64,000 nt of DNA from Prochlorococcus sp. scB245a_519A13 (GTDB lineage Bacteria > Cyanobacteriota > Cyanobacteriia > PCC-6307 > Cyanobiaceae). Below, piece by piece: positions 3,776-38,809 of this stretch. The notes beneath the pieces were generated by a model that did no database searches, was not told the origin of the DNA, and saw only the letters and a program-made list of their open reading frames with translations. The DNA lies in the NCBI GenBank assembly GCA_000634415.1, contig JFNH01000004.1, positions 1 to 64,000 on the forward strand, in the 5' to 3' direction. Every line of letters begins with the position of its first letter. Position 1 is the first letter of the stretch. The position numbers and the translations under genes were made by a program.

Positions 3776-6700
3776 TTATATCGAATTAATTGCCATCCAT
3801 GCTATTAGTTTTATTTCTGATTTATCAATAGGATTTAATCTTTTAGGAGGTATAAACCCTTCTAAACCAGAGCTAATAATTTTTTTTGTAAGAAATTCTG
3901 CTTTGTGAATCCCATCCAGTTCTTCTGTGAACCAGATCTTTAGTTCTTTTTCGTCTCTTCTTGACCAAGGCGATTCGAGAATATTCAAAGCCTTTTCAAT
4001 TTCTTTTTGAGGAATATTTTTGGGGATATTTGTTCTTATGAATTCTGCGATGTTTCTATTAAGAGGTCTCACCTGCGGCTGAAGATTAAGCGGGTCAGTT
4101 TCAAAAGTCCAGGATTTGTAAATGTGATCTTTGGCAATTAACCATAAATCGTATGCTGAGTCTTCCGTTATTTTATTCATTACCGTTTCTGAATCAGGTG
4201 AACATTCAATCAACCTAAGACATCGCCCAATTTCAAAATCAATTATTGGTTCAGCATTTTCTGAATTTTCAATAGTGCGTTCTTTAACTTCCCATTTTTT
4301 AGATGTATGAACAAACCTAAGGTATGTTCTCTCACCAACTTTCGCGCAAAAGAACATACCTTGTTCCTTCCCTTTTAATATTCCAGATCCAACTTTCCAG
4401 GGCATTTGTTTAATTTCATCACCACGATTTTTAATCTCTTTTCGCAAAGTTTGTCTATATTCTTCACCACTCTGTACTCCATTTTTAGTTCCCCCTCTTT
4501 CGTATAAAGAAGGATCTTCCTCTAAGAGTTTTTGTATTTCTTCTCTTGTTTCAGTAAAATTTCTATCTATGCTGTTAGCTTGTGCAATGGGCGAATATAC
4601 CCCTACAGAAGCTGCAGCCATTGCAATTTTTCGTGCAATTTTTTCTTCTAGGCCTAAAAGTGCATCTAGCCTATCAACTGGAAAAATTGTCCGCATAAAA
4701 ACTCTGCTATGTTCACTTCCAATTCGATCGATTCTTCCATGTCTTTGAACTAATCTCATAGGATTCCAGGGAAGATCATAATTTATAATGTGCCTTGCCT
4801 GTTGCAGATTGACTCCTTCCGCCAAGACATCGGTACTAATCAAAATATCAATTGTGTCATTTGATCCTTCTATTCCAGCAGTTCTTGGTGCAAATCTTGC
4901 GGCAGCTGTAGATTTGTCAAGGCTTTGAGGACCTTTTTTACCTGTAATTGTTTCTATTCGATCCAAGTAACATTCTAGTTCTCTATTATTTTTAACAACC
5001 TCATTTAGGTAGTTTTTTATCCATAAAACAGTATCTGCGAAGAAAGAAAAAATAATTATTTTTCGTTTATTAATCTCATCTTGTTCTGAAACCGATGTTG
5101 ATTTTGCTTCACTAGCTATAGAAGAAAGTTCTTGTACTAATATTTTTAGTTTGGGGTCATTATGAATTGTTATTTTTTCTAATAAGCTATGGATTTTTAG
5201 TAATTTTTGGAGATCATCATTTACATAATTTTTTAACTTATCAATTTCATAAAGTTTCTGATCACTTTTCATTAAATTAATTTTTAGCAATTCTTCGAAG
5301 TCCTCATCGTCAGTGCCCAGAGAATCTCGTAGAAATTCAGTTCCAACAATAAATCCTTGTTCGACAGCTTTCAAAAAGTTTTTGTGTTGTTCAATGAGCC
5401 TTTTAATTGATAATTTAAATGCACCTGTGGAGGACTCAAATCTTTTTAGTAATCCGCTCAAAAGTAGACCTGTTACGGTCATTGATGTATTGGCTTCCTC
5501 ATTTTCATTCTTATTTTTTAAAAAATCATCTGTTCTGTATCTAGCGAAAGATATACATTCTGGATTGTCAGGATCAAGATATTTTTCTATTAAGTCAAAT
5601 AAACCTGGCATCAAACTTTCAAGTTCGTATCTAACAGTAATTGCCTTGGGCTCTGGAAAAACGATAGGTTGAAGCTTGCCGTTGTACTCTATGTGATCAT
5701 TACCATAATATTTTTTGATAAATCTCCTTGTTCTTTTTACTGTTGTTGCATCAACGATAGGGTAGAGAGTATCAGGTGAAAGATTTGTTGGATCAGTGCG
5801 CATAGCATCTTCAAACCTTCTTCTTATTGATAAGATCCCTTTGTCAGCTAATAAAGAGTCTTGTTTGAGGAAAAATAAAGTCAAATTATATAAATCCCAT
5901 AGTGAATTATTCACTGGAGTAGCAGTTAGCATCAAAATATCTTTTCTTGGGCCATATAGTAATTTTCTTAGAGCACCTGCCCTAAATTGAGAATCAGGAT
6001 TTCTGTAATTATGTGCCTCATCAATAATTATCAGTTGATATTCATCTATTTTCCTTTTTAAATTTTCAGAATCTGAATTTGGTCTGTGAATAGGGTGATA
6101 TAGCTGTTTATCTTGCGCAATTTCTTCGAAAGAGAGAGTTTCGATATAAAGTGAGTAATCATTTGTAAATTTGTCCCATGATGAATCTCTTAAGGCAGCG
6201 GGGCAAATTAATAAAGCTCGTTGCCTTTTTCTCATATATTCTTTGAGAATTTCAGCAGCTATAAATGTTTTTCCAAGACCCACTTCATCGGCAATAATAG
6301 CTCCCCCAGTTTCTTTAATTAATCGTAAAGCTCTTGCTACGCCATGTTGTTGAAATGTAGTAAGAGGTAGCCCTCCATCTGATTTAAAATCTTCATTTAT
6401 TTCATCACCATAAAGTTCCCACAAAACCCTAAGAAAAATTTCATAAGGTGTTTTTGGTTCAAATATTTCCTCAAAGAATGATGCAAGATCAAAAAAAGTA
6501 GATTGCTCCCAAATGTTGTCAAACCATTGATTAGCTTTGATTAATGTGTTCTTATCAAATTTGGCTAAGTTTAATTCTAAATTTGAAGATAAACCAGAAC
6601 CAGTTAAATTAGAAGATCCTGCAATTAATGCATCCAAATAATTTTCGCTAATGGAGTGATCATGATTAAAAATATAAGCTTTAGCATGTAAAAAATTTAT

Positions 6701-27687: not shown

Positions 27688-28926
27688 TTGAGCCAGTTAG
27701 ATTCCAATTGGTCTTTTGTTGATGACAGTAAGTTAACACCCAAGGGGTTTCTTTTTGCTGGGATATCTGCTGGTTTAAAAGCTTCTAATAAAAAAGATTT
27801 AGCACTAATACTCGCTCCAAAAGGAAGTATTTTTACTGGGATGTTTACCCAATCAATAGTTCGAGCTTCTTGTGTGGATATTTGTGAGGAAAGGATTAAA
27901 ACAACTTCAGGTTTTGTAAGAGCAATACTAATTAATTCTGGTCAAGCAAATGCATGTACAGGAAATCTTGGCATTCAACATTTTCAAATTGCTACAGGAA
28001 AGATTGCGGAACTTTTAGGAATAAAAGAAGAAGAAGTTTTAATGTGCTCAACTGGCGTAATTGGTGTTCCAATACAAATAAATGATTTAGTAAAAAATTT
28101 ACCGAATTTAGTATGTGATTTAAAGAGTAATAATTTTGAAAATGCAGCAGAAGCAATTTTAACTACTGATTTGACTTTGAAAAAAGTGTCAATAGAGACG
28201 ATTATTCAAGGTAGAAAAATAAAAATAGCAGGATTTGCAAAAGGTTCAGGAATGATTTACCCCAACATGGCTACAATGCTTGCTTTCCTAACCTGTGATG
28301 CGGGTATTCAAAAAGAAGAATGGGACAAAATGATTGCTATTGCGGTTCAAAAATCTTTTAATGCAATATCAGTTGATGGAGAGACAAGCACAAATGATTC
28401 TTTTGTTGGAATAAATGCAGGAGAGAAAATTGAAAAAAGGTTTTTTCCAATTATCCAACAAGGGCTTGATATTGTATGTCAGAACTTGGCAAAAAATATT
28501 GCAAGGGACGGAGAGGGAGCAAATTGTTTATTAGAAGTTTTGGTTCAAGGAGCAAAAAATACAGATGATGCAATTATGCTCGCGAAATCTATTTGTAATT
28601 CGGCCTTGGTAAAAACTGCGATACATGGTTGTGATCCGAATTGGGGACGAATCATTTCTGCTGCAGGTAATGCTGGAGTTAAATTTAATTTAAATGACGT
28701 TGACTTGTATATAGGAAACGCTCAGATTTTGGAAAACGGCAAGTTAAATAAATATGATCCACAAAAAGTCAAAGACTATATTAAGTCTAGAATGAAAGGT
28801 AGATATTTAGTAGATGATATTGTGAAAATTATGATTAATCTAAATTCTGGCGAATCGAAAGGCACATCTTGGGGGTGCGATCTTTCTAAAAAATATGTTG
28901 AAATAAATAGCGAATATACAACTTAG
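27688..28926 (+). CDS. argJ: bifunctional glutamate N-acetyltransferase / amino-acid acetyltransferase
   Basis: SGQANACTG, KGSGMIYPNMATMLAFLTCDA; ends KKYVEINSEYTT; TTG start. Confidence 0.95.
   Translation: MSQLDSNWSFVDDSKLTPKGFLFAGISAGLKASNKKDLALILAPKGSIFTGMFTQSIVRASCVDICEERIKTTSGFVRAILINSGQANACTGNLGIQHFQIATGKIAELLGIKEEEVLMCSTGVIGVPIQINDLVKNLPNLVCDLKSNNFENAAEAILTTDLTLKKVSIETIIQGRKIKIAGFAKGSGMIYPNMATMLAFLTCDAGIQKEEWDKMIAIAVQKSFNAISVDGETSTNDSFVGINAGEKIEKRFFPIIQQGLDIVCQNLAKNIARDGEGANCLLEVLVQGAKNTDDAIMLAKSICNSALVKTAIHGCDPNWGRIISAAGNAGVKFNLNDVDLYIGNAQILENGKLNKYDPQKVKDYIKSRMKGRYLVDDIVKIMINLNSGESKGTSWGCDLSKKYVEINSEYTT
28894..28926 (+). repeat. att-like direct repeat (argJ 3' end)
   Basis: tatgttgaaataaatagcgaatatacaacttag; 26/33 identical to 37937-37969. 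Confidence 0.75.
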
Positions 28927-28973
28927 GGTATGGTTGCAGTGATAGCAATAGATCTAAAGACTGCTAAACGTTT

Positions 28974-28990
28974 GTTCACAGCGTGTTCAC
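28974..28990 (+). repeat. 11-nt-period GTTCAC pair (putative recombinase arm site)
   Basis: GTTCACAGCGTGTTCAC. Confidence 0.55.
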
Positions 28991-28996
28991 AGTCAA

Positions 28997-29464
28997 TTAA
29001 GATTTAATTTTTAGTCCTTTATCTAAATTCCTAAATTCACATTTTTTAAAAATTGTTGTAGGTATTTTTTTATAAGGGATGTGTACATAAGAAGAATCTA
29101 TTATCATTTTCCCTGACATATCGTTGAAATTGACTTCAATAAAAATATCCCTTACAACACCATTACTTAAAAAAGTTCTAGAAGATTGTGATGTAAACAA
29201 ACCAGATTTAAGACTAGAAGAACTTTCCATAATGAATTTACTAGTTTTAATTTTTTCATTAAAAGGAATTATGGTATTGCTCGGTATTTCATCAAATACT
29301 TCCTCCATTCTTCTGTAACGCTGACCAGTTTTTATATCTACAAGTAATGAAAGACCGATAGGTCCCTCACAATATAATTCTTTTATATTTGATTTTTTAG
29401 AAATAAAACCGCTAGTTAAAAATGATAAAGAAATTAAAAGCGGTGCAATTAGTAAGCGTTTCAT
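28997..29464 (-). CDS. hypothetical secreted/membrane-anchored protein
   Basis: ORF from internal ATG at 29464 gives MKRLLIAPLLISLSFLTSGF signal-peptide-like N-terminus. Confidence 0.6.
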   Translation of the reverse strand: MKRLLIAPLLISLSFLTSGFISKKSNIKELYCEGPIGLSLLVDIKTGQRYRRMEEVFDEIPSNTIIPFNEKIKTSKFIMESSSSLKSGLFTSQSSRTFLSNGVVRDIFIEVNFNDMSGKMIIDSSYVHIPYKKIPTTIFKKCEFRNLDKGLKIKS

Positions 29465-29516
29465 TAAAACTATAAAAATAAAATAATGTTCAGCATCTTC
29501 CAACAAATAATCATAA

Positions 29517-30683
29517 TTATTGCTCCTTTATTCTTATTTGATCACCATCAAATTGATTTGCTAAATCTCTAAAATATCTTTCATCTTTAAAAGACCAATT
29601 TTTATATTTTCTTAAATAAACACCGCCACATTTTTTTTCGTAACTAACACCCCAGAAGTCTTCAAAATCTGAAGGATTCTCAAAACACTCATCTTTCTCC
29701 CAAGACTGCCCGGAAAGTTTTCTGATATTTGGAAGTCCACCATCAATATAACTTTGATAAGTATCATAATTTTCAAAGTTATCTTGTTCTTTTAATGGTA
29801 ATTCCATATAAACTTCCCAACCTATAAAAAGAAGAGTTTCCTTATTTTCATTATCGTCTTCTAAATAATTATGTTTTTTTTCTGTTAATTTGCTTTCATT
29901 ATAAACTTTTTGTTCTAATGCATTTTTATTATTTGGATTGATTTCTAGCACTTTGGATAAATAATAATTTGCACTTTTGTAATCAAATAGCAATGATTTT
30001 GCAGTGCCAATGTTTAAAAACAACTCTTCTTTACTTTTCGTTGTGTTCAACTTAATTAAAATTAGAAAATCATCTATGGCATTTTTATAATCATCTAAAA
30101 AAAATAATCTGAATTTTCCTCTCCAATAAAATGCATCTTCATTGCTTGGATTTAATTCAATTAATTTTGAAAGATCATCACAAGCATTTGCATGTAAATT
30201 TAATATTCCAAAAGACATACTACGCGAAAAATATGCATCTTGGTCTTCTGGATTAGATTTAATTGCTTCTGTAAAATCATTTATCGCTCCTTGATTATCT
30301 TTAATTTTTGCCTTTGCAACACCTCTCCAATAAAATGCCCTTTCAAAATTAGCATTTATTTCAATTACGTTTGTTAAATCTTCAATCGCACCATTAAAGT
30401 CATTCGATAAAACTTTTAAATAACCCATAAAATTTATAGCATCTAAATTAGATGGATCTAAGTTAATTGCTTTTGAAAGATCATCGATTGCATTTGGATC
30501 ATTTCCTAATAAGTAATGAGCAATGCCTCTTTTACAAAAAACTTGACTTAATTTTGGTGTTAATTCTATTACTTGAGTATATAAATTAATTGACCTTTGA
30601 TATTCTTTTAATGCAAATTCATCATCTGCTAACTCCCATAATGAGTTAATAACCTTTTCAATTTTCAATTCTAAGTTATCCAA
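29517..30683 (-). CDS. TPR-repeat protein
   Basis: 388 aa with repeated AIDDLSKAINLDPSNLDA-type 34-residue units. Confidence 0.85.
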   Translation of the reverse strand: MDNLELKIEKVINSLWELADDEFALKEYQRSINLYTQVIELTPKLSQVFCKRGIAHYLLGNDPNAIDDLSKAINLDPSNLDAINFMGYLKVLSNDFNGAIEDLTNVIEINANFERAFYWRGVAKAKIKDNQGAINDFTEAIKSNPEDQDAYFSRSMSFGILNLHANACDDLSKLIELNPSNEDAFYWRGKFRLFFLDDYKNAIDDFLILIKLNTTKSKEELFLNIGTAKSLLFDYKSANYYLSKVLEINPNNKNALEQKVYNESKLTEKKHNYLEDDNENKETLLFIGWEVYMELPLKEQDNFENYDTYQSYIDGGLPNIRKLSGQSWEKDECFENPSDFEDFWGVSYEKKCGGVYLRKYKNWSFKDERYFRDLANQFDGDQIRIKEQ

Positions 30684-30834
30684 TTTGCAGATAAATTTTA
30701 AGGTTATTAAACTAATTTATCTTAATTTAAGATTTTTAATACTTTTTAAAATTATTTTTTAAAATTCGGGCAAAAACATCCCTTTCTAAAACAAATTTGA
30801 ATAATTAGTGTAATATTTCTGTAAAAATAAAAAA

Positions 30835-31389
30835 ATGAGCAATTCAAACTCTGTAATTGATGAAGCAATTGATAAAGCAAAAGAATTTCTCAAAAAAAAC
30901 CTTGTTGAGATTGAAAAAAGAGATGATCTTTCTCAAAGTCAAAAAGCAAATAGGATAATCAACTTATTTGCAGGTGTATGCGCTGGTATAGCAATACAAC
31001 CAATTCCGTTTGCAGATATCTTCGTTTTAACTCCAATACAAGTTTTAATGGGTGAAAGATTAGCGGCAATTTGGGGTGTCCCAGTAACCGAATCTTCAAT
31101 CAGTGCTGTAATAAAAGATATTTTAAAAGTTGGGGGCATGGGTTTACTTTCACAGCAGTTAGCAATAGCAGCATATAAAACCTTCTTACCATTTATGGGA
31201 GCAGTTACTACTGTTCCTTTGGTCTATGGTCTAACTTATGCTATTGGAACAGTTTTATCTGAAATGTATAAACGACGATCCAAAGGAGAGTCAAAACTTT
31301 CAGACGAAGAATTGCGTAAAATTTGGAACGAATCCAGAAAAAAAGGCAAAGAAAAATATAAGAAAGGAGATGAGATTGATATTAAATAA
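30835..31389 (+). CDS. DUF697/YcjF-like membrane protein
   Basis: 184 aa; AGVCAGIAIQPIPFADIFVLTPIQVLMGERLAAIWGV...GGMGLLSQQ pattern. Confidence 0.65.
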   Translation: MSNSNSVIDEAIDKAKEFLKKNLVEIEKRDDLSQSQKANRIINLFAGVCAGIAIQPIPFADIFVLTPIQVLMGERLAAIWGVPVTESSISAVIKDILKVGGMGLLSQQLAIAAYKTFLPFMGAVTTVPLVYGLTYAIGTVLSEMYKRRSKGESKLSDEELRKIWNESRKKGKEKYKKGDEIDIK

Positions 31390-31413
31390 TTTTTAAAAGA
31401 GGAAAATTATCAA

Positions 31414-32244
31414 ATGAAAGATAAATTAAAGAAATTAACAAATTATGTAAGAAATAACTTTGATGAAGGTGCAATATTAACTTCTATAATTTCAATTGCA
31501 GCAAACGGGGGTGGGAAAAACCTCACATCTAATGAATCAATAATTCTTGCCGCATTAAGAAGATCAGCAAAAAAGTTTGAAGATGCCTCTGTAGAGGAAA
31601 TTGGAGAAATTTTAGATTCTTATGATGAAAATCAGATCCCAGGTTTAGTAAATAATGTCAAGGGAATTTTGTTTGAACTTGAATTTGTTGAGATAGAAAA
31701 TAATGATGGAGATTCTATTTTTGCTTATCAGTTTGAGCAAACAAATTATCCAACTTATGATATCCAATTAATTGATGAACAAACTGGAGCGATTGAAGAA
31801 GTACAACTGAAAGCAACTAGTAGTGCTTCATATGTTAAAAATTGGATGGATGAACATGGCGAAAATATTGTAGTTACTGATGAAGTTGCCGAAGAATTGG
31901 GGTTGGATGTTGTTGGTATTAATAATGAAGAACTAGAAGTAAGAGTGGAAGATTTTATAGACAAAATGAAAGATGTCGATGAAAATTCCATTACTCCAAT
32001 GCTTGGAAATATTGGCACAATAAGTCTTGCTATATCTCTAGTTTTTCTAGTTAAAAAATGGATGAGTGGTGAAATAAAAAAAGAGGAGTTTTTGAAAACA
32101 TCTGCATTAATAACAGGTAAGAAAGTTGTTAAGTTTTCAATAATTGCAATGGCGTTGACGATACCTGGAATTAATTTTATTACTGCAGTAGGACTAGCAA
32201 CTAGTTTAATTGTTCAAGGTAAAAGAACCTTTGATCGTGTCTGA
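31414..32244 (+). CDS. hypothetical protein with possible Mrr-like QxK nuclease motif and C-terminal hydrophobic segments
   Basis: 276 aa; FELEFVE...PTYDIQLID...EEVQLKATSS followed by IGTISLAISLVFLV and IIAMALTIPGINFITAVGLA. Confidence 0.5.
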   Translation: MKDKLKKLTNYVRNNFDEGAILTSIISIAANGGGKNLTSNESIILAALRRSAKKFEDASVEEIGEILDSYDENQIPGLVNNVKGILFELEFVEIENNDGDSIFAYQFEQTNYPTYDIQLIDEQTGAIEEVQLKATSSASYVKNWMDEHGENIVVTDEVAEELGLDVVGINNEELEVRVEDFIDKMKDVDENSITPMLGNIGTISLAISLVFLVKKWMSGEIKKEEFLKTSALITGKKVVKFSIIAMALTIPGINFITAVGLATSLIVQGKRTFDRV

Positions 32245-32326
32245 GATGATTTATCTTAATTACTAAATACGATTCTATATGATAGTGGAGCGCTAGAATT
32301 TATATTAGATATAATTAGAAATCCTC

Positions 32327-32905
32327 TTGGATTCAACAGAATATTATCTTGGTTTAAAAGATGAATCAGGAAAATTAATTGAATTAATATCATTTTCTGG
32401 AAAAATTAACGGTGATGGGAAAACTATGGAAGTATTCTTCTTACCATCAAGGGATAAAAAAGATATTGATATTTTAGAAGCAAGATCCTTTTGGCAAGAT
32501 AAAATAAAAAAAGGATTCTCAAAAATTGATTCAAAATTAGCAATAGCATTTTCTGCAAAATTAAATACAAATAAAGAAAGATATCAGGGACAAAATTTTG
32601 GAGTTGATAGAACAAAAGAAGAATTAAAAGAGGGAGTAGAAGAAATAATTAATTCCAAAAGAAATTCAAGAACTACAAGCGAAACAATCACAAGGGTTTT
32701 ATTTAATCAAGACTGTGAGTATAGTTTCACTTCTTTTTCAAAAAAAGATGATACCGTAACTGTGAAGTATTTAGAATACGAAACTGATGCTTCTGAAATC
32801 ACAGAATATCAAAAAGAAGATGCTAGAAAACTTTGGAGAAAATTAAAAGAAGAGCACTTTGATGATTTACCACCATCTCTAACCAAAGTTGTTAATTGTG
32901 ATTAA
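32327..32905 (+). CDS. hypothetical protein
   Basis: 192 aa ORF, same strand as the two preceding genes. Confidence 0.55.
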   Translation: MDSTEYYLGLKDESGKLIELISFSGKINGDGKTMEVFFLPSRDKKDIDILEARSFWQDKIKKGFSKIDSKLAIAFSAKLNTNKERYQGQNFGVDRTKEELKEGVEEIINSKRNSRTTSETITRVLFNQDCEYSFTSFSKKDDTVTVKYLEYETDASEITEYQKEDARKLWRKLKEEHFDDLPPSLTKVVNCD

Positions 32906-33113
32906 ACCTTAAAGAAAATTTCAATGATTGATTTTCAGAATCAGGGTCGTGATTGTTATGTAAACTTGTGTAAACCATTATTCATTTTTGACATAAAACT
33001 CTTATAGATACTCTGTATCCATTCATCCAACGGGTTTAGGTTATCAGGTCTTTAAGGATGCTTTAAGGGATTATTTAAGGAATCTTATATTTTAAATGTA
33101 TAAATAAATGTAG

Positions 33114-33407
33114 TTGAGCAATATAGTTCAAGACCGTAATACATCAGAAAGAGCAGTTCACACCATTACAAACCGAATAAAGATGCAACAAGTTTTATAC
33201 ACCAGAGATGCCGTTAGGCAAACCACCGAAGGTGGTTTCCATAGAGTCCTTCGTAAGAATGTCTCATACAACAAGTATGAAGATCATATTCAAAGAATTG
33301 AAAAAGAACTTATGAAGAAGCACCGATTAGGATATTCTGCCTTAGTTAAGTTTCTGATTCTCAAAGAAGGTCAACAGCAGTTTGGAATTCCATTCTTAGC
33401 ATCCTAA
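33114..33407 (+). CDS. small hypothetical basic protein
   Basis: 97 aa ORF (TTG start) preceded by TTTAAGG direct repeats. Confidence 0.5.
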   Translation: MSNIVQDRNTSERAVHTITNRIKMQQVLYTRDAVRQTTEGGFHRVLRKNVSYNKYEDHIQRIEKELMKKHRLGYSALVKFLILKEGQQQFGIPFLAS

Positions 33408-33509
33408 TGACTGTTATTGTGCCATATAAATTTTTATTGGTTAACTTTCAAAAAAACATTTTGCATTGATGCTTTCTTTTATAAAATAAATGTAATGGAA
33501 TTAATTTAA

Positions 33510-35897
33510 GTGAGTGAGTCGCAGAAAGATATTAGAACCTCGATGACCTTTTTTGAGGAAGGTAATAAACAGTATGATCTTGGAAATTATGAGAGTGCTT
33601 TAAATTGTTATTCAAAATCTATCTATATAGATTCAAATAACTTTAAGGTCTTTTTTAATAGAGGTCTGGCAAAAAGTTTTTTAAATGACTTTTATGGAGC
33701 GATTGAAGATTTCACAAAAGTAATTGAGTTAAATCCAAAAGATGATGATGCTTATACTCAAAGAGGAGAAGCAAAATTCTTCTTAGAGGATTATGAAGGA
33801 GCGATTGAAGATTTCACAAAAGTAATTGAGTTAAATCCAAAAGATGATGATGCTTATACTCAAAGAGGAGAAGCAAAATATAAACTTAATAGGTACGAAA
33901 GTGCTATGGATGATTTTTCAAAGTCAATAGAATTAAATCCTAAAAATGTTAATGCCTTTCTAAACCAAGGAGCAATTAAAACAGTAAAAAAAGATTTTAA
34001 TGGTGCAATTGAGGATTATTCAAAAGTAATCGAGTTTGATCCAAAAAACGAAAATGCCTTATTCAATAGGGGAGTAGTTAAATCATTTATCAAAGAAATT
34101 ACTGGTGCAATTGAAGATTATTCAAAAGTAATTGAGTTAAATCCAGAAAATAATCGTGCTTATATTGAAAGAGCACTTTTACATTATGATCTCAAGAATT
34201 TTACTGGTGCAATTGAGGATTATTCAAAAGTAATCGAGTTTGATCCAAAAAATGCAATTGCTTTTTTAAGTAGGGCGATTGTTAAATCAGTTATCAAAGA
34301 TATTTCTGGTGCAATTGAGGATTATTCAAAAGCAATTGAGTTAAATCCAGAAGATAATAGTGCTTATATTGAAAGAGGAAAGGCACAATATACTTTAGAG
34401 AATTTTAAAGGAGCGATTGAAGATTTCTCAAAAGCAATTGAGTTAAATCCAGAAGATATTAGTGCTTATATTGAAAGAGGGTTGGCAAAAGATTATATAG
34501 AGGATTTTCAAGGTGCTATTGATGATTACTTAAAAGCAATTGAGTTAAACCCAGAAGATGAAAGGTCATATCTTTTTAGAGGAGAATCAAAATATAAATT
34601 AAATGAATATCAAAGTGCCAATGAGGATTTTTCAAAAGTTATAGAATTAAATCCAAAAAATGAATTTGCTTTTTTTAATAGAGGAGTGGTTAAATCAGTC
34701 ATAAAAGACGTTACTGGTGCAATTGAGGATTATTCAAAAGCAATTGAAATTAATCCTCAAAAAGAAATCGCTTTTTTTGATAGAGGTGTTGCAAAAACGC
34801 GATTAAGTGATTATGAAGGTGCGATTGAAGATTTCTTAAAAGTTATTGAATTAAATCCCAAAGATGAGATTGCTTTGAGATACCTTGGAAAAGCGAAATA
34901 TGATCTTAATGATTATCAAGGTGCGATTGAAGATTTCACAAAAGTAATTGAGTTAAATCCTAAAATGAATCTTGCCTACCTGGGGAGAGGAAACGCAAAA
35001 TTCTTATTAGAGGATTATCAAGGTACAATTGAAGATTTTACAAAAGTAATTGAATTAAATCCTAAAAATGAATTTGCTTATTTTAGAAGAGGAGAAGCAA
35101 AATCTAAAATTAAAGAATACAAGGGTGCAATTGAAGATTTTACACAAGTAATTAAATTGAATCCTAAATATGAATTGGTTTTTTTTAAAAGAGGGTTGGC
35201 AAAAGATTATATAGAGGATTATCAAGGTGCAATTGAAGATTATTCCAAATCAATAGAATTAAATCCTAAATATGAAAATATTTTTTTTAATAGAGGGATG
35301 GCAAAAAATTATATAGAGGATTATCAAGGTGCAATTGAAGATTTCACAAAAGTAATTGAATATAATCCAAAGGATGAAAGTGGTTTCTTCAATAGAGGTG
35401 TCGCAAAAAGGGGTTTGGAAGATTATCAAGGTGCTATAGATGATTACTCAAAAGTAGTTGAATTAAATCCAAAAAATGAAATTGCTTTGAGAAATATAGG
35501 AAGAGCAAAAAATGCTTTGCGTGAATTCGATGAGTCAATTGGGTATTACTCAAAAGCAATTAAATTAAATCCAGAAAATGAAATTTATTATTTTGAAAGA
35601 GGAGAAGTGAAATTTATGCAAGAGTGTTATCGAATTGTTAACAAGGACAATACCAATAAGGATGATTATCAAGGTGCTATGGAGGATTATTCAAAAGTAA
35701 TAGAATTAAATCCTTATAATTACAGGGCATTTTTAATGAGAGGAAATTTAAAAGGACGCCTTTACGATTATCACGGGGCGATTGAAGATTATTCTCAGGT
35801 ATTGAAAATTGATCCAGAAAACAAGGAGGCACTTAAGAAAAGATCTGATTTATATAAAGAATTATCTGAAATTGATATAGATAAAATTAAAGATTAA
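33510..35897 (+). CDS. large TPR-repeat protein
   Basis: 795 aa, about 20 consecutive 34-aa TPR units (GAIEDFTKVIELNPKNE...); GTG start. Confidence 0.9.
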   Translation: MSESQKDIRTSMTFFEEGNKQYDLGNYESALNCYSKSIYIDSNNFKVFFNRGLAKSFLNDFYGAIEDFTKVIELNPKDDDAYTQRGEAKFFLEDYEGAIEDFTKVIELNPKDDDAYTQRGEAKYKLNRYESAMDDFSKSIELNPKNVNAFLNQGAIKTVKKDFNGAIEDYSKVIEFDPKNENALFNRGVVKSFIKEITGAIEDYSKVIELNPENNRAYIERALLHYDLKNFTGAIEDYSKVIEFDPKNAIAFLSRAIVKSVIKDISGAIEDYSKAIELNPEDNSAYIERGKAQYTLENFKGAIEDFSKAIELNPEDISAYIERGLAKDYIEDFQGAIDDYLKAIELNPEDERSYLFRGESKYKLNEYQSANEDFSKVIELNPKNEFAFFNRGVVKSVIKDVTGAIEDYSKAIEINPQKEIAFFDRGVAKTRLSDYEGAIEDFLKVIELNPKDEIALRYLGKAKYDLNDYQGAIEDFTKVIELNPKMNLAYLGRGNAKFLLEDYQGTIEDFTKVIELNPKNEFAYFRRGEAKSKIKEYKGAIEDFTQVIKLNPKYELVFFKRGLAKDYIEDYQGAIEDYSKSIELNPKYENIFFNRGMAKNYIEDYQGAIEDFTKVIEYNPKDESGFFNRGVAKRGLEDYQGAIDDYSKVVELNPKNEIALRNIGRAKNALREFDESIGYYSKAIKLNPENEIYYFERGEVKFMQECYRIVNKDNTNKDDYQGAMEDYSKVIELNPYNYRAFLMRGNLKGRLYDYHGAIEDYSQVLKIDPENKEALKKRSDLYKELSEIDIDKIKD
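33696..33879 (+). repeat. 82-nt exact repeat at 102-nt spacing inside the TPR gene
   Basis: 33696-33777 is identical to 33798-33879. Confidence 0.85.
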
Positions 35898-35956
35898 TTC
35901 ATATCGTTCTAACAGATTGATGATAAATGTCACTGCGGGAAAGTTCCAATATCCTT

Positions 35957-36214
35957 TTATTTACTTTGACTTTTCTTTTTGTACATGTTCCTTAGTTCAA
36001 CATAGTTTTTTAAACAAAGGTCTACATACATCGGGAACTTTGCAGCAGATATTTTATTTTTCTTGTAATTTTGACCATCTTTGATTGATAGGAACCTATC
36101 TGCCCACCTTAGGCAGTATGTCTTCTCTTCAGTCAGTTCTGTTTCAACTGAATATAAAGGAACTGATAATGAGCAGAATAAAGTTACTAATAAAATTCCA
36201 GGTGGTTGTCTCAT
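35957..36214 (-). CDS. small secreted hypothetical protein
   Basis: 85 aa; signal peptide-like N-terminus MRQPPGILLVTLFCSLSVPLYS; ATGA overlap with the integrase stop. Confidence 0.5.
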   Translation of the reverse strand: MRQPPGILLVTLFCSLSVPLYSVETELTEEKTYCLRWADRFLSIKDGQNYKKNKISAAKFPMYVDLCLKNYVELRNMYKKKSQSK

Positions 36215-37794
36215 AAGACCTTTGAAAATTCTTTTATAGATGAATCAAATTTTTTAAATGGTGGTTCATAATCTTTTATTGTTACTACACCTTTGAGATA
36301 TCTGTGATGACCTTTATCCAATTTGTCTAGGATTTCTGGACTCAAATTATCGTGATGATAATAATGTTTTCTAATGTACTCAGGTGAAGTATCACAAAAT
36401 GCAGAAACCTCATGAAGTTCCATACCATCACTTTGGAGCATGAAAGTGATAAATGAATGGCGAAAACTATACCAAGATATCTTTTTACCACTTCTTATAT
36501 TCATTGCTTTATTGACTAGTGGTTTACCATCCTCATGAAGTTTTCTTCTATCTGCTAAACCCGCTTCTATCATCATGTCTACCAGTGCTTCTTGCCATAT
36601 TCTTTCACTCCACTCTTCTCCAGTTTTTTGATTGCAAAAAATTAGATCATCAGGTTTTGTATAGTTGCTGATCTTCTTAAGTTGATCATAAATCTCGGTG
36701 ATTCGAGCAGGAATCTCAAAATATTCATTAGTTTTGTTTATTTGTGATGGTACTTTTACTTGCTTATAAAATTTTGAACTTCGCTCCGATCTTTCTGTAA
36801 TCTCTACTATATTTGACCATTTAAGTTGCTTTATAACACCAAATCTTAAACCAGTTTCTAACGCAATTCTCATTGCAAGATATACCATTTTTCTGTGCTT
36901 TATTTGATGTTTTGCTCTATTTGATGTTCCATCACCAAAGATTACACTTTTGAGAATAGGTTTTCCATCCAAAATATCAAAACCATACAGATCTCCATTG
37001 TGATCAAATTTAGAAATACCATGTTGATAATATTTTTCTCCTACTTTTAGTAGTGCTGATATTTCTTCTCTTTCAAACATTGAACGTCTTGTATCCTGGG
37101 TTTCTGCGGTAGTCACAGTCATATTTTCCTTTGGTTTTAAAGGTAACTGATTACGATTGATCCATCTCTGACGCACTCCAATAATTGAATATGCTCTGAT
37201 TATGTTGAATATCTCTCTTACAATTGTTTGTTTTCTTGGTAATGCTTTTCCATGTCTATCACACTTGTTGATAGTTCTTCTTCGGTAGTTGAAGTAACCT
37301 TCAAGATGATTGATATCCATAAGATGAATTGATGAATTATCTGACCTACCGAGTCCCCACTCTTTATCTTTAATAAATTGCAAATAATGTTGCATTTCAA
37401 ATGACATCCTTCGCCAAGTTTTTTCAGTAATAGTTCCTTCTTCTGGATTATTTAGTGGATTGATTCTTTTTTTTTCTTTTTCAATATATGTTTCAATCAT
37501 CCTTCTGATCGATAAAGTTTTAGTTTTTTCTCCACGATCAGTTTTATTTTTTAATTCAAAGAAAGTTTTAGTTCCTATTCTCTCAGCATCATTAAATCCA
37601 TCAATTGTAGGACTTGGATATCTTCCATCAGTCTCAAGAAGAGTGATCCAATGTCTACTCTTTGTTTTTTTATTAATGAAATACAAACTCCATTTATCAT
37701 TACGAGTTTTATCTCTAAAGATGTAAGCATTTCCTTCTTCACATCCTTTTAAAAAGTGCTTGTTTTGCACCCTGCCATTTACCTTAAATACCAT
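36211..37794 (-). CDS. tyrosine recombinase / phage-type integrase
   Basis: 527 aa; ALETGLRFGVIKQLKW (Arg I), SWYSFRHSFITFML (box II), CDTSPEYIRKHYYHH (catalytic Tyr). Confidence 0.88.
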   Translation of the reverse strand: MVFKVNGRVQNKHFLKGCEEGNAYIFRDKTRNDKWSLYFINKKTKSRHWITLLETDGRYPSPTIDGFNDAERIGTKTFFELKNKTDRGEKTKTLSIRRMIETYIEKEKKRINPLNNPEEGTITEKTWRRMSFEMQHYLQFIKDKEWGLGRSDNSSIHLMDINHLEGYFNYRRRTINKCDRHGKALPRKQTIVREIFNIIRAYSIIGVRQRWINRNQLPLKPKENMTVTTAETQDTRRSMFEREEISALLKVGEKYYQHGISKFDHNGDLYGFDILDGKPILKSVIFGDGTSNRAKHQIKHRKMVYLAMRIALETGLRFGVIKQLKWSNIVEITERSERSSKFYKQVKVPSQINKTNEYFEIPARITEIYDQLKKISNYTKPDDLIFCNQKTGEEWSERIWQEALVDMMIEAGLADRRKLHEDGKPLVNKAMNIRSGKKISWYSFRHSFITFMLQSDGMELHEVSAFCDTSPEYIRKHYYHHDNLSPEILDKLDKGHHRYLKGVVTIKDYEPPFKKFDSSIKEFSKVL

Positions 37795-37801
37795 GATTCC
37801 C

Positions 37802-37818
37802 GTTCACTATATGTTCAC
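37802..37818 (+). repeat. 11-nt-period GTTCAC pair (putative recombinase arm site)
   Basis: GTTCACTATATGTTCAC. Confidence 0.55.
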
Positions 37819-37862
37819 GCTTGCAAAGTCTGATCTACGTTATTACTAGAATTTTACGTCTT

Positions 37863-37879
37863 GCTCACCCTTTGTTCAC
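37863..37879 (+). repeat. 11-nt-period GCTCAC/GTTCAC pair (putative recombinase arm site)
   Basis: GCTCACCCTTTGTTCAC. Confidence 0.5.
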
Positions 37880-37936
37880 ACTCCTATTATAGCACAAAAA
37901 CCCAGTTATTGCAACCTATTACAGGGATTTAGAGAG

Positions 37937-37969
37937 TATGTAGAAATAAACTCGGAATATACTACTTAA
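37937..37969 (+). repeat. att-like direct repeat, distal (duplicated argJ 3' end)
   Basis: tatgtagaaataaactcggaatatactacttaa encodes YVEINSEYTT*. Confidence 0.75.
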
Positions 37970-38204
37970 GTTTTAGTAAATCTAATGGTAGATATTCATT
38001 AATATAAAGAAACAGTATTGTTAAAGTTCCAATTACAGAGCCTATAAAACCTCCAAAAAAATTAACTAATAATCCAGATTGTTTAATTATTGCTTCTTCG
38101 TTTTTTTCTTCTTCAAAATTAGGAGAATCAACTACTTTTAAGCGCTGATTGGTTGTTGGTTGTTTAAGTTGTTGGTGTCGGATGAGGGCTTCGAAATCAG
38201 GCAT
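37962..38204 (-). CDS. small membrane protein
   Basis: 80 aa with one TM (FFGGFIGSVIGTLTILFLYI); overlaps the 3' end of the ParA-like gene. Confidence 0.5.
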   Translation of the reverse strand: MPDFEALIRHQQLKQPTTNQRLKVVDSPNFEEEKNEEAIIKQSGLLVNFFGGFIGSVIGTLTILFLYINEYLPLDLLKLK

Positions 38205-38809
38205 GGAATTTGTGAGGCAATTGAACAGTAAGCAGACCAGCCCGTCATTCGACGAGGATCTGATCTACCTAAATCGTCTACAGCTTCAAATACAGCATTG
38301 CCCGAGGCTTCTGCTTTATCAAATGCTGAAAGTAAGGGTATAAATGTATCAAAAACATATAAACCAAAATTTTCTAGAGCTGCTTTGGCTTGTTGCGCTG
38401 CTTTTTGCTGTCTAAAATCAACTTTTACTATTACTACAGCATGGTTAACTTTTAAGTTGCTTAATAAATTAGCTAGTTCAACAGTTAATTCTACTGATCT
38501 TGCTTTTGCAGTTGTAGGTAAAATAACTAAATCTGAGCCATACGCTAAGTGTTTAAGTTCTTCTTGATCACTGCTAGCCTGGCCATCAGTTATTACAATT
38601 TCTGATGATCTTGATGCTTTAGCAGCTGAACTGACGGGGAAGACTGGAAATGGAAGATTGCCTCTTGATGCGTATGCCAAAGCAGATCTATTCTTGTCGG
38701 CATCGACTATGCAAACTTTTTTGCCTTTAGAATGCCAAACACTAGCAAGGTGAATACTTGTACAGGTTTTGGCTACCCCTCCTTTTTGTCCGCAAACGGT
38801 AATGAACAA
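38138..38809 (-). CDS. ParA/MinD-family ATPase
   Basis: MFITVCGQKGGVAKTCTSIHLA deviant Walker A; VCIVDADKNRSA. Confidence 0.88.
   Translation of the reverse strand: MFITVCGQKGGVAKTCTSIHLASVWHSKGKKVCIVDADKNRSALAYASRGNLPFPVFPVSSAAKASRSSEIVITDGQASSDQEELKHLAYGSDLVILPTTAKARSVELTVELANLLSNLKVNHAVVIVKVDFRQQKAAQQAKAALENFGLYVFDTFIPLLSAFDKAEASGNAVFEAVDDLGRSDPRRMTGWSAYCSIASQIPCLISKPSSDTNNLNNQQPISA

Follow-up and report, generated by a model that had tools for sequence, protein, structure and literature searches.

Two adjacent genes, here called A and B, form a real and conserved two-gene unit on a mobile element of Prochlorococcus sp. scB245a_519A13, and their sequences and surroundings suggest that the pair is probably an antiviral module. 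The window, that is, the whole stretch of DNA analysed, comprises 64,000 nucleotides (contig JFNH01000004.1, positions 1 to 64,000). In the preferred reading, to which we assign a probability of roughly 0.55 from sequence, structure models and analogy, the pair would act as a membrane-tethered nuclease module that cuts entering DNA. B is already a catalogued PADLOC candidate (PDC-M72B), and its pairing with a DUF697 protein is not described in the literature searched on PDC-M72 and on DUF697 in defence, with bioRxiv preprints outside the search. The genes concerned are listed below.

30835-31389, forward strand: gene A, 184 aa, a DUF697 protein with three borderline hydrophobic stretches (residues 41-59, 62-80 and 123-141)
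31414-32244, forward strand: gene B, 276 aa, a predicted PD-(D/E)XK nuclease with C-terminal hydrophobic helices, of the PADLOC PDC-M72B family
32327-32905, forward strand: C, a putative gene, 192 aa, an orphan open reading frame with a TTG start

An earlier note, made from the sequence, had described three consecutive genes on the same strand, and all three open reading frames are found at these coordinates and on this strand. Its assignment of the first gene to DUF697 is borne out by the score of A against PF05128, which is 31.1 bits over a match covering residues 31-99 only and exceeds the curated cut-off of 27.7. The hydrophobic stretches of A are borderline (1.4-1.7 on the Kyte-Doolittle scale), and a role as membrane anchor or sensor is proposed for it. 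Additionally, the paired A homologues conserve its PIPFADxxxLTPxQ motif. B finds no credible match in Pfam or NCBIfam and is matched by both PDC-M72B models of PADLOC (5.7e-28 and 1.6e-23); a search with the PADLOC models returned no match for A or C, and C has no credible family match. Identity to an independent Prochlorococcus pair, that of locus L027, is 69% for A and 82% for B. Both genes look like genes under purifying selection, since dN/dS against this pair is ~0.165 for A and ~0.104 for B, approximate values obtained at high dS. Scans for promoters and terminators found nothing beyond chance expectation.

The unit recurs in distant hosts. B and two plasmid homologues were used to scan GTDB genomes, which yielded 78 loci, and viral contigs, which yielded six; the latter were found with an alignment of the three sequences after a search with B alone had detected no relatives in these contigs. 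The 19 long-form B loci come from several phyla; in 16 of them A stands immediately upstream, and in another, the SAR86 genome L040, A and B are fused, giving 17 pairs including the fusion. The upstream arrangement, always on the same strand, is present in the window, in 14 genome contigs (L027-L039 and L091) and in the IMG/VR contig L105. Thirteen of the 17 pairs overlap or are separated by at most 4 nt, with the fusion counted apart. Hosts of the pair include cyanobacteria, Pseudomonadota, Desulfuromonadales, Bacteroidota, a Neomarinimicrobiota bacterium, and a Desulfovirgula-type firmicute; L035 comes from Halopseudomonas and L037 from Bacteroidota. Furthermore, the distance matrices of A and B are correlated (r = 0.86), a value as high being reached in none of 5000 permutations. 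The distribution of B is sporadic, as the window's own genome is the only carrier among 149 related genomes and among 386 genomes of the phylum. Relatives of A without B (L006, L116) and relatives of B without A also occur. The A homologue of L116 (3887-5096) has a C-terminal extension and is followed by an Excalibur-domain gene, with an integrase-like gene nearby. Upstream of a long-form B in the closely related alphaproteobacterial loci L041 and L042, two small hydrophobic genes (4320-4896) replace A.

The earlier note had expected all three genes to occur together. For A and B this is strongly the case, but C is absent from every related locus and lies outside the module: no homologue of it occurs in the 84 loci fetched with B, in the viral contigs or in phages, and related genomes offer one weak match interrupted by a stop. 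A three-gene cassette is thus rejected, and what had been taken for one is the A-B pair with C as an unrelated neighbour.

The positions on which the reading of B depends are the following.

31525-31971, forward strand: nuclease-like domain of B, residues 38-186, AlphaFold model with pLDDT 93.1 and pTM 0.88
31675-31677, forward strand: codon of E88 in the KGIxxE helix, invariant (65/65)
31759-31761, forward strand: codon of D116 in PTYD, invariant (65/65)
31804-31812, forward strand: codons of Q131-L132-K133 in EVQLK, with Q in 64/65 and K in 65/65
31996-32196, forward strand: segment of B from its first hydrophobic stretch (residues 195-213) to the end of its second (243-261), a probable membrane-associating tail

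B is predicted to be a PD-(D/E)XK-type nuclease. The PTYD and QxK motifs already noticed in the sequence prove to be real (D116 and Q131-x-K133), and the conserved E88, which had been missed, joins them. N81, K83, G84, and I85 are likewise invariant among the 65 homologues, and the third acidic position is occupied by Q, which gives the QxK form. Structure searches with whole B were diluted by its low-confidence ends, so the domain was modelled alone. Whole-protein and domain models agree on an a-b-b-b-a-b core (order H, E, E, E, H, E), in which helix 75-96 carries E88 and is followed by a strand and by another that starts just past D116; strand 127-133 then ends in Q131-x-K133 and leads to a helix and a last strand. 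In these models the E, D, Q, and K occupy the expected places of the PD-(D/E)XK core. PA endonuclease structures are the best PDB matches of the domain, and AvaII, SwaI, and DdmD follow lower in the ranking, all of them PD-(D/E)XK enzymes; E values are 0.026 or worse and TM scores do not exceed 0.41 among the matches listed. Many of the named matches near the top of a viral structure library are nucleases of the PD-(D/E)XK class, and the named matches include a restriction endonuclease, a VRR-NUC protein, and a nuclease. As no structure search with B returned a match reaching E 1e-3, the fold assignment draws on topology, residues, and the kind of matches together. The nuclease fold anticipated from the sequence is thus supported by a confident model and by the nature of the top PDB matches, though by none of them at E 1e-3. 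The label Mrr-like does not survive as a statement of membership, since neither Mrr_cat nor Mrr_cat_2 of Pfam matches B at E up to 1. Hydrophobic segments do follow the core, as had been observed, and they recur in the A-partnered homologues; this tail is probably membrane-associating.

The genomic surroundings support a role of the pair in conflict or defence. In L033 and L037 the pair sits within a BREX operon, 4 nt past pglX and before an AlkB-like oxygenase gene, and pglX is itself preceded by brxC (assigned by HMM in L033 and by eye in L037). The oxygenase genes lie at 5807-6427 in L033 and 5814-6428 in L037, and the L033 copy also matches the PADLOC model CARF_2OG. A type III CRISPR locus (L039) carries the pair between cas6/cas2 and Card1/Cas10, and in L091 it comes after cas1. 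DUF697 proteins also figure among the prevalent non-cas neighbours in a survey of Cas1 from hot springs. Moreover, a helicase-nuclease restriction gene lies near the pair in L031 and an N6-methylase in L027. In about 10 of the 16 related loci, the fetched flanks contain no recognised defence gene. Of the earlier suggestion of an undescribed conflict or defence module, the defence part thus gains support from embedding in BREX, CRISPR-Cas, and restriction loci, but "undescribed" was too strong for a unit that contains PDC-M72B.

The anatomy of the pair resembles the workings of known membrane-based systems. SNIPE works in a like manner, uniting a cytoplasmic nuclease with an anchor in the inner membrane, and it demonstrates that a membrane-bound nuclease can cleave phage DNA at injection (PMC13190303); tethering in SNIPE is reported to protect the host. 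SNIPE differs in that a single chain carries a GIY-YIG nuclease and DUF4041, neither of which is detected by Pfam search in A, B or C. Zorya and Kiwa likewise join a membrane sensor to a DNA-acting partner, which in Kiwa is non-cutting (PMC12904381), but no Zor or Kwa model of PADLOC matches any of the three proteins. A shares PF05128 with YcjF and other DUF697 proteins; unlike them it is short, has no GTPase domain, and is paired with a nuclease. In E. coli, infection with phiX174 induces YcjF together with the phage-shock response (PMC8125068), which by analogy makes a membrane-stress role for A plausible.

On these grounds the pair may be pictured as follows. The C-terminal hydrophobic helices of B would keep it, together with A, at the inner membrane, and the resting complex would be kept off the chromosome. 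Injection of phage DNA would disturb the membrane, A would then position or release B, and B would cleave the incoming DNA. In this scheme we infer catalysis, membrane location, contact between A and B, trigger, and DNA target. A wider idea is put forward only tentatively and is rather doubtful: DUF697 proteins might sense phage-induced membrane stress, and the module might link a sensor of this kind with a tethered nuclease of QxK type, adopted by BREX and type III CRISPR systems as a membrane-level first line. An antiviral function is suggested for DUF697, a widespread membrane domain with no known role.

A membrane partner, a nuclease, and embedding in defence loci would fit abortive infection equally well, with B as an indiscriminate nuclease or A as a pore that kills the infected cell once A senses membrane damage. 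The sequence does not distinguish this from direct defence, yet the hydrophobic tail is borne by the nuclease itself, which by analogy with SNIPE would favour local action, and we consider abortive infection unlikely. The Q at the third position, where D or E is expected, bears on another alternative, as it makes an inactive, DNA-binding-only B possible. B would then be a catalytically dead binder that stops entering DNA from being replicated or transcribed at the membrane, in the manner of KwaB of Kiwa, a system in which a membrane protein and a DNA-binding protein that does not cleave block phage (PMC12904381). The invariance of E88, D116, and K133 in 65 homologues is hard to explain without catalysis and argues against this proposal. 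QxK variants, moreover, occur among active Mrr-type nucleases, and a dead B is accordingly regarded as improbable.

The tethered-nuclease reading gains breadth from the other partners of B. PDC-M09A, a glycine-rich, membrane-like, candidate-defence domain, is present in 54 of the 58 other fusions or upstream partners, 33 of the 58 being single chains with B. A membrane partner is therefore a shared theme, and one nuclease family is combined with at least two predicted membrane partners. The PDC-M09A-linked B proteins, mainly from Rhodobacterales, possess the same nuclease domain and a membrane partner either fused to it (33 open reading frames) or encoded upstream; the difference lies in the partner, which is the glycine-rich PDC-M09A protein there and DUF697 in the A-B pair. 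Filing the pair as PDC-M72 was rejected because the PDC-M72A component is missing: PADLOC's partner for PDC-M72B is of ankyrin type and is not A, and its model (PDLC04783) finds nothing in the genome of the window, an assembly that is 67% complete. The PDC-M72A model matches repeat proteins in many genomes, and one relative appears by eye to be ankyrin-repeat-like. Payne et al. 2024 is reportedly a preprint on embedded defences. This preprint, cited in PMC13092281, could already describe the A-B pair. PDC-M72B, hitherto a catalogue entry of unknown function, becomes half of a two-gene unit that can be tested, whose conserved residues and partner are specified and of which a natural fusion exists. 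If the preferred reading is true, membrane-tethered nuclease defences would come in more than one nuclease fold, and their membrane partners would be interchangeable.

The pair is carried by a 9.04-kb element inserted at about 28926-37937, at the 3' end of argJ, as placed by alignment to two empty sites. The boundary features are given below.

28894-28926, forward strand: left direct repeat, the argJ 3' end, with 26/33 bases identical to the right copy
36211-37794, reverse strand: tyrosine recombinase (integrase) at the right end of the element
37937-37969, forward strand: right direct repeat, where the relatives' empty site joins

The mobile island postulated by the earlier note is hence delimited by repeats, empty-site alignment, and integrase. 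The distance from argJ to the downstream aldo/keto reductase gene is 10.03 kb here and 0.99-1.0 kb in 24 of 49 related genomes, whose site is empty; in 23 of the 49 the spacing is more than 1.6 kb, with insertions of different sizes, which makes the argJ 3' end a hot spot for integration in this genus. Were the preferred reading true, a candidate defence system would be added to the mobile islands of Prochlorococcus.

Residence on a mobile element, together with the close or overlapping arrangement of two genes, is also what a toxin-antitoxin or maintenance module would display, with B as toxin and A as its neutraliser. However, the supposed antitoxin resembles a membrane protein, and the position inside BREX and cas loci suggests accessory defence, so that such a module is very unlikely. 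A role outside defence, for instance in membrane-linked DNA uptake or repair, could be read from the CoiA-like gene near B in L031 and on a Yoonia plasmid and from the ordinary neighbours at several loci, but the sporadic occurrence of B and the presence of the pair on a mobile element and in defence loci leave it little credence.

Cargo at other argJ sites includes a restriction-type helicase-nuclease (L122, 698-3325) and a PD-(D/E)XK protein (L119, 2111-2965), which may mark the site as a defence hot spot. A ParA-like gene (38138-38809) lies beyond the right repeat, and counterparts of it occur at other argJ sites, which places it outside the element. Inside the element, A and B are flanked by two TPR-repeat proteins at 29517-30683 and 33510-35897, the larger of which has about 22 repeats.
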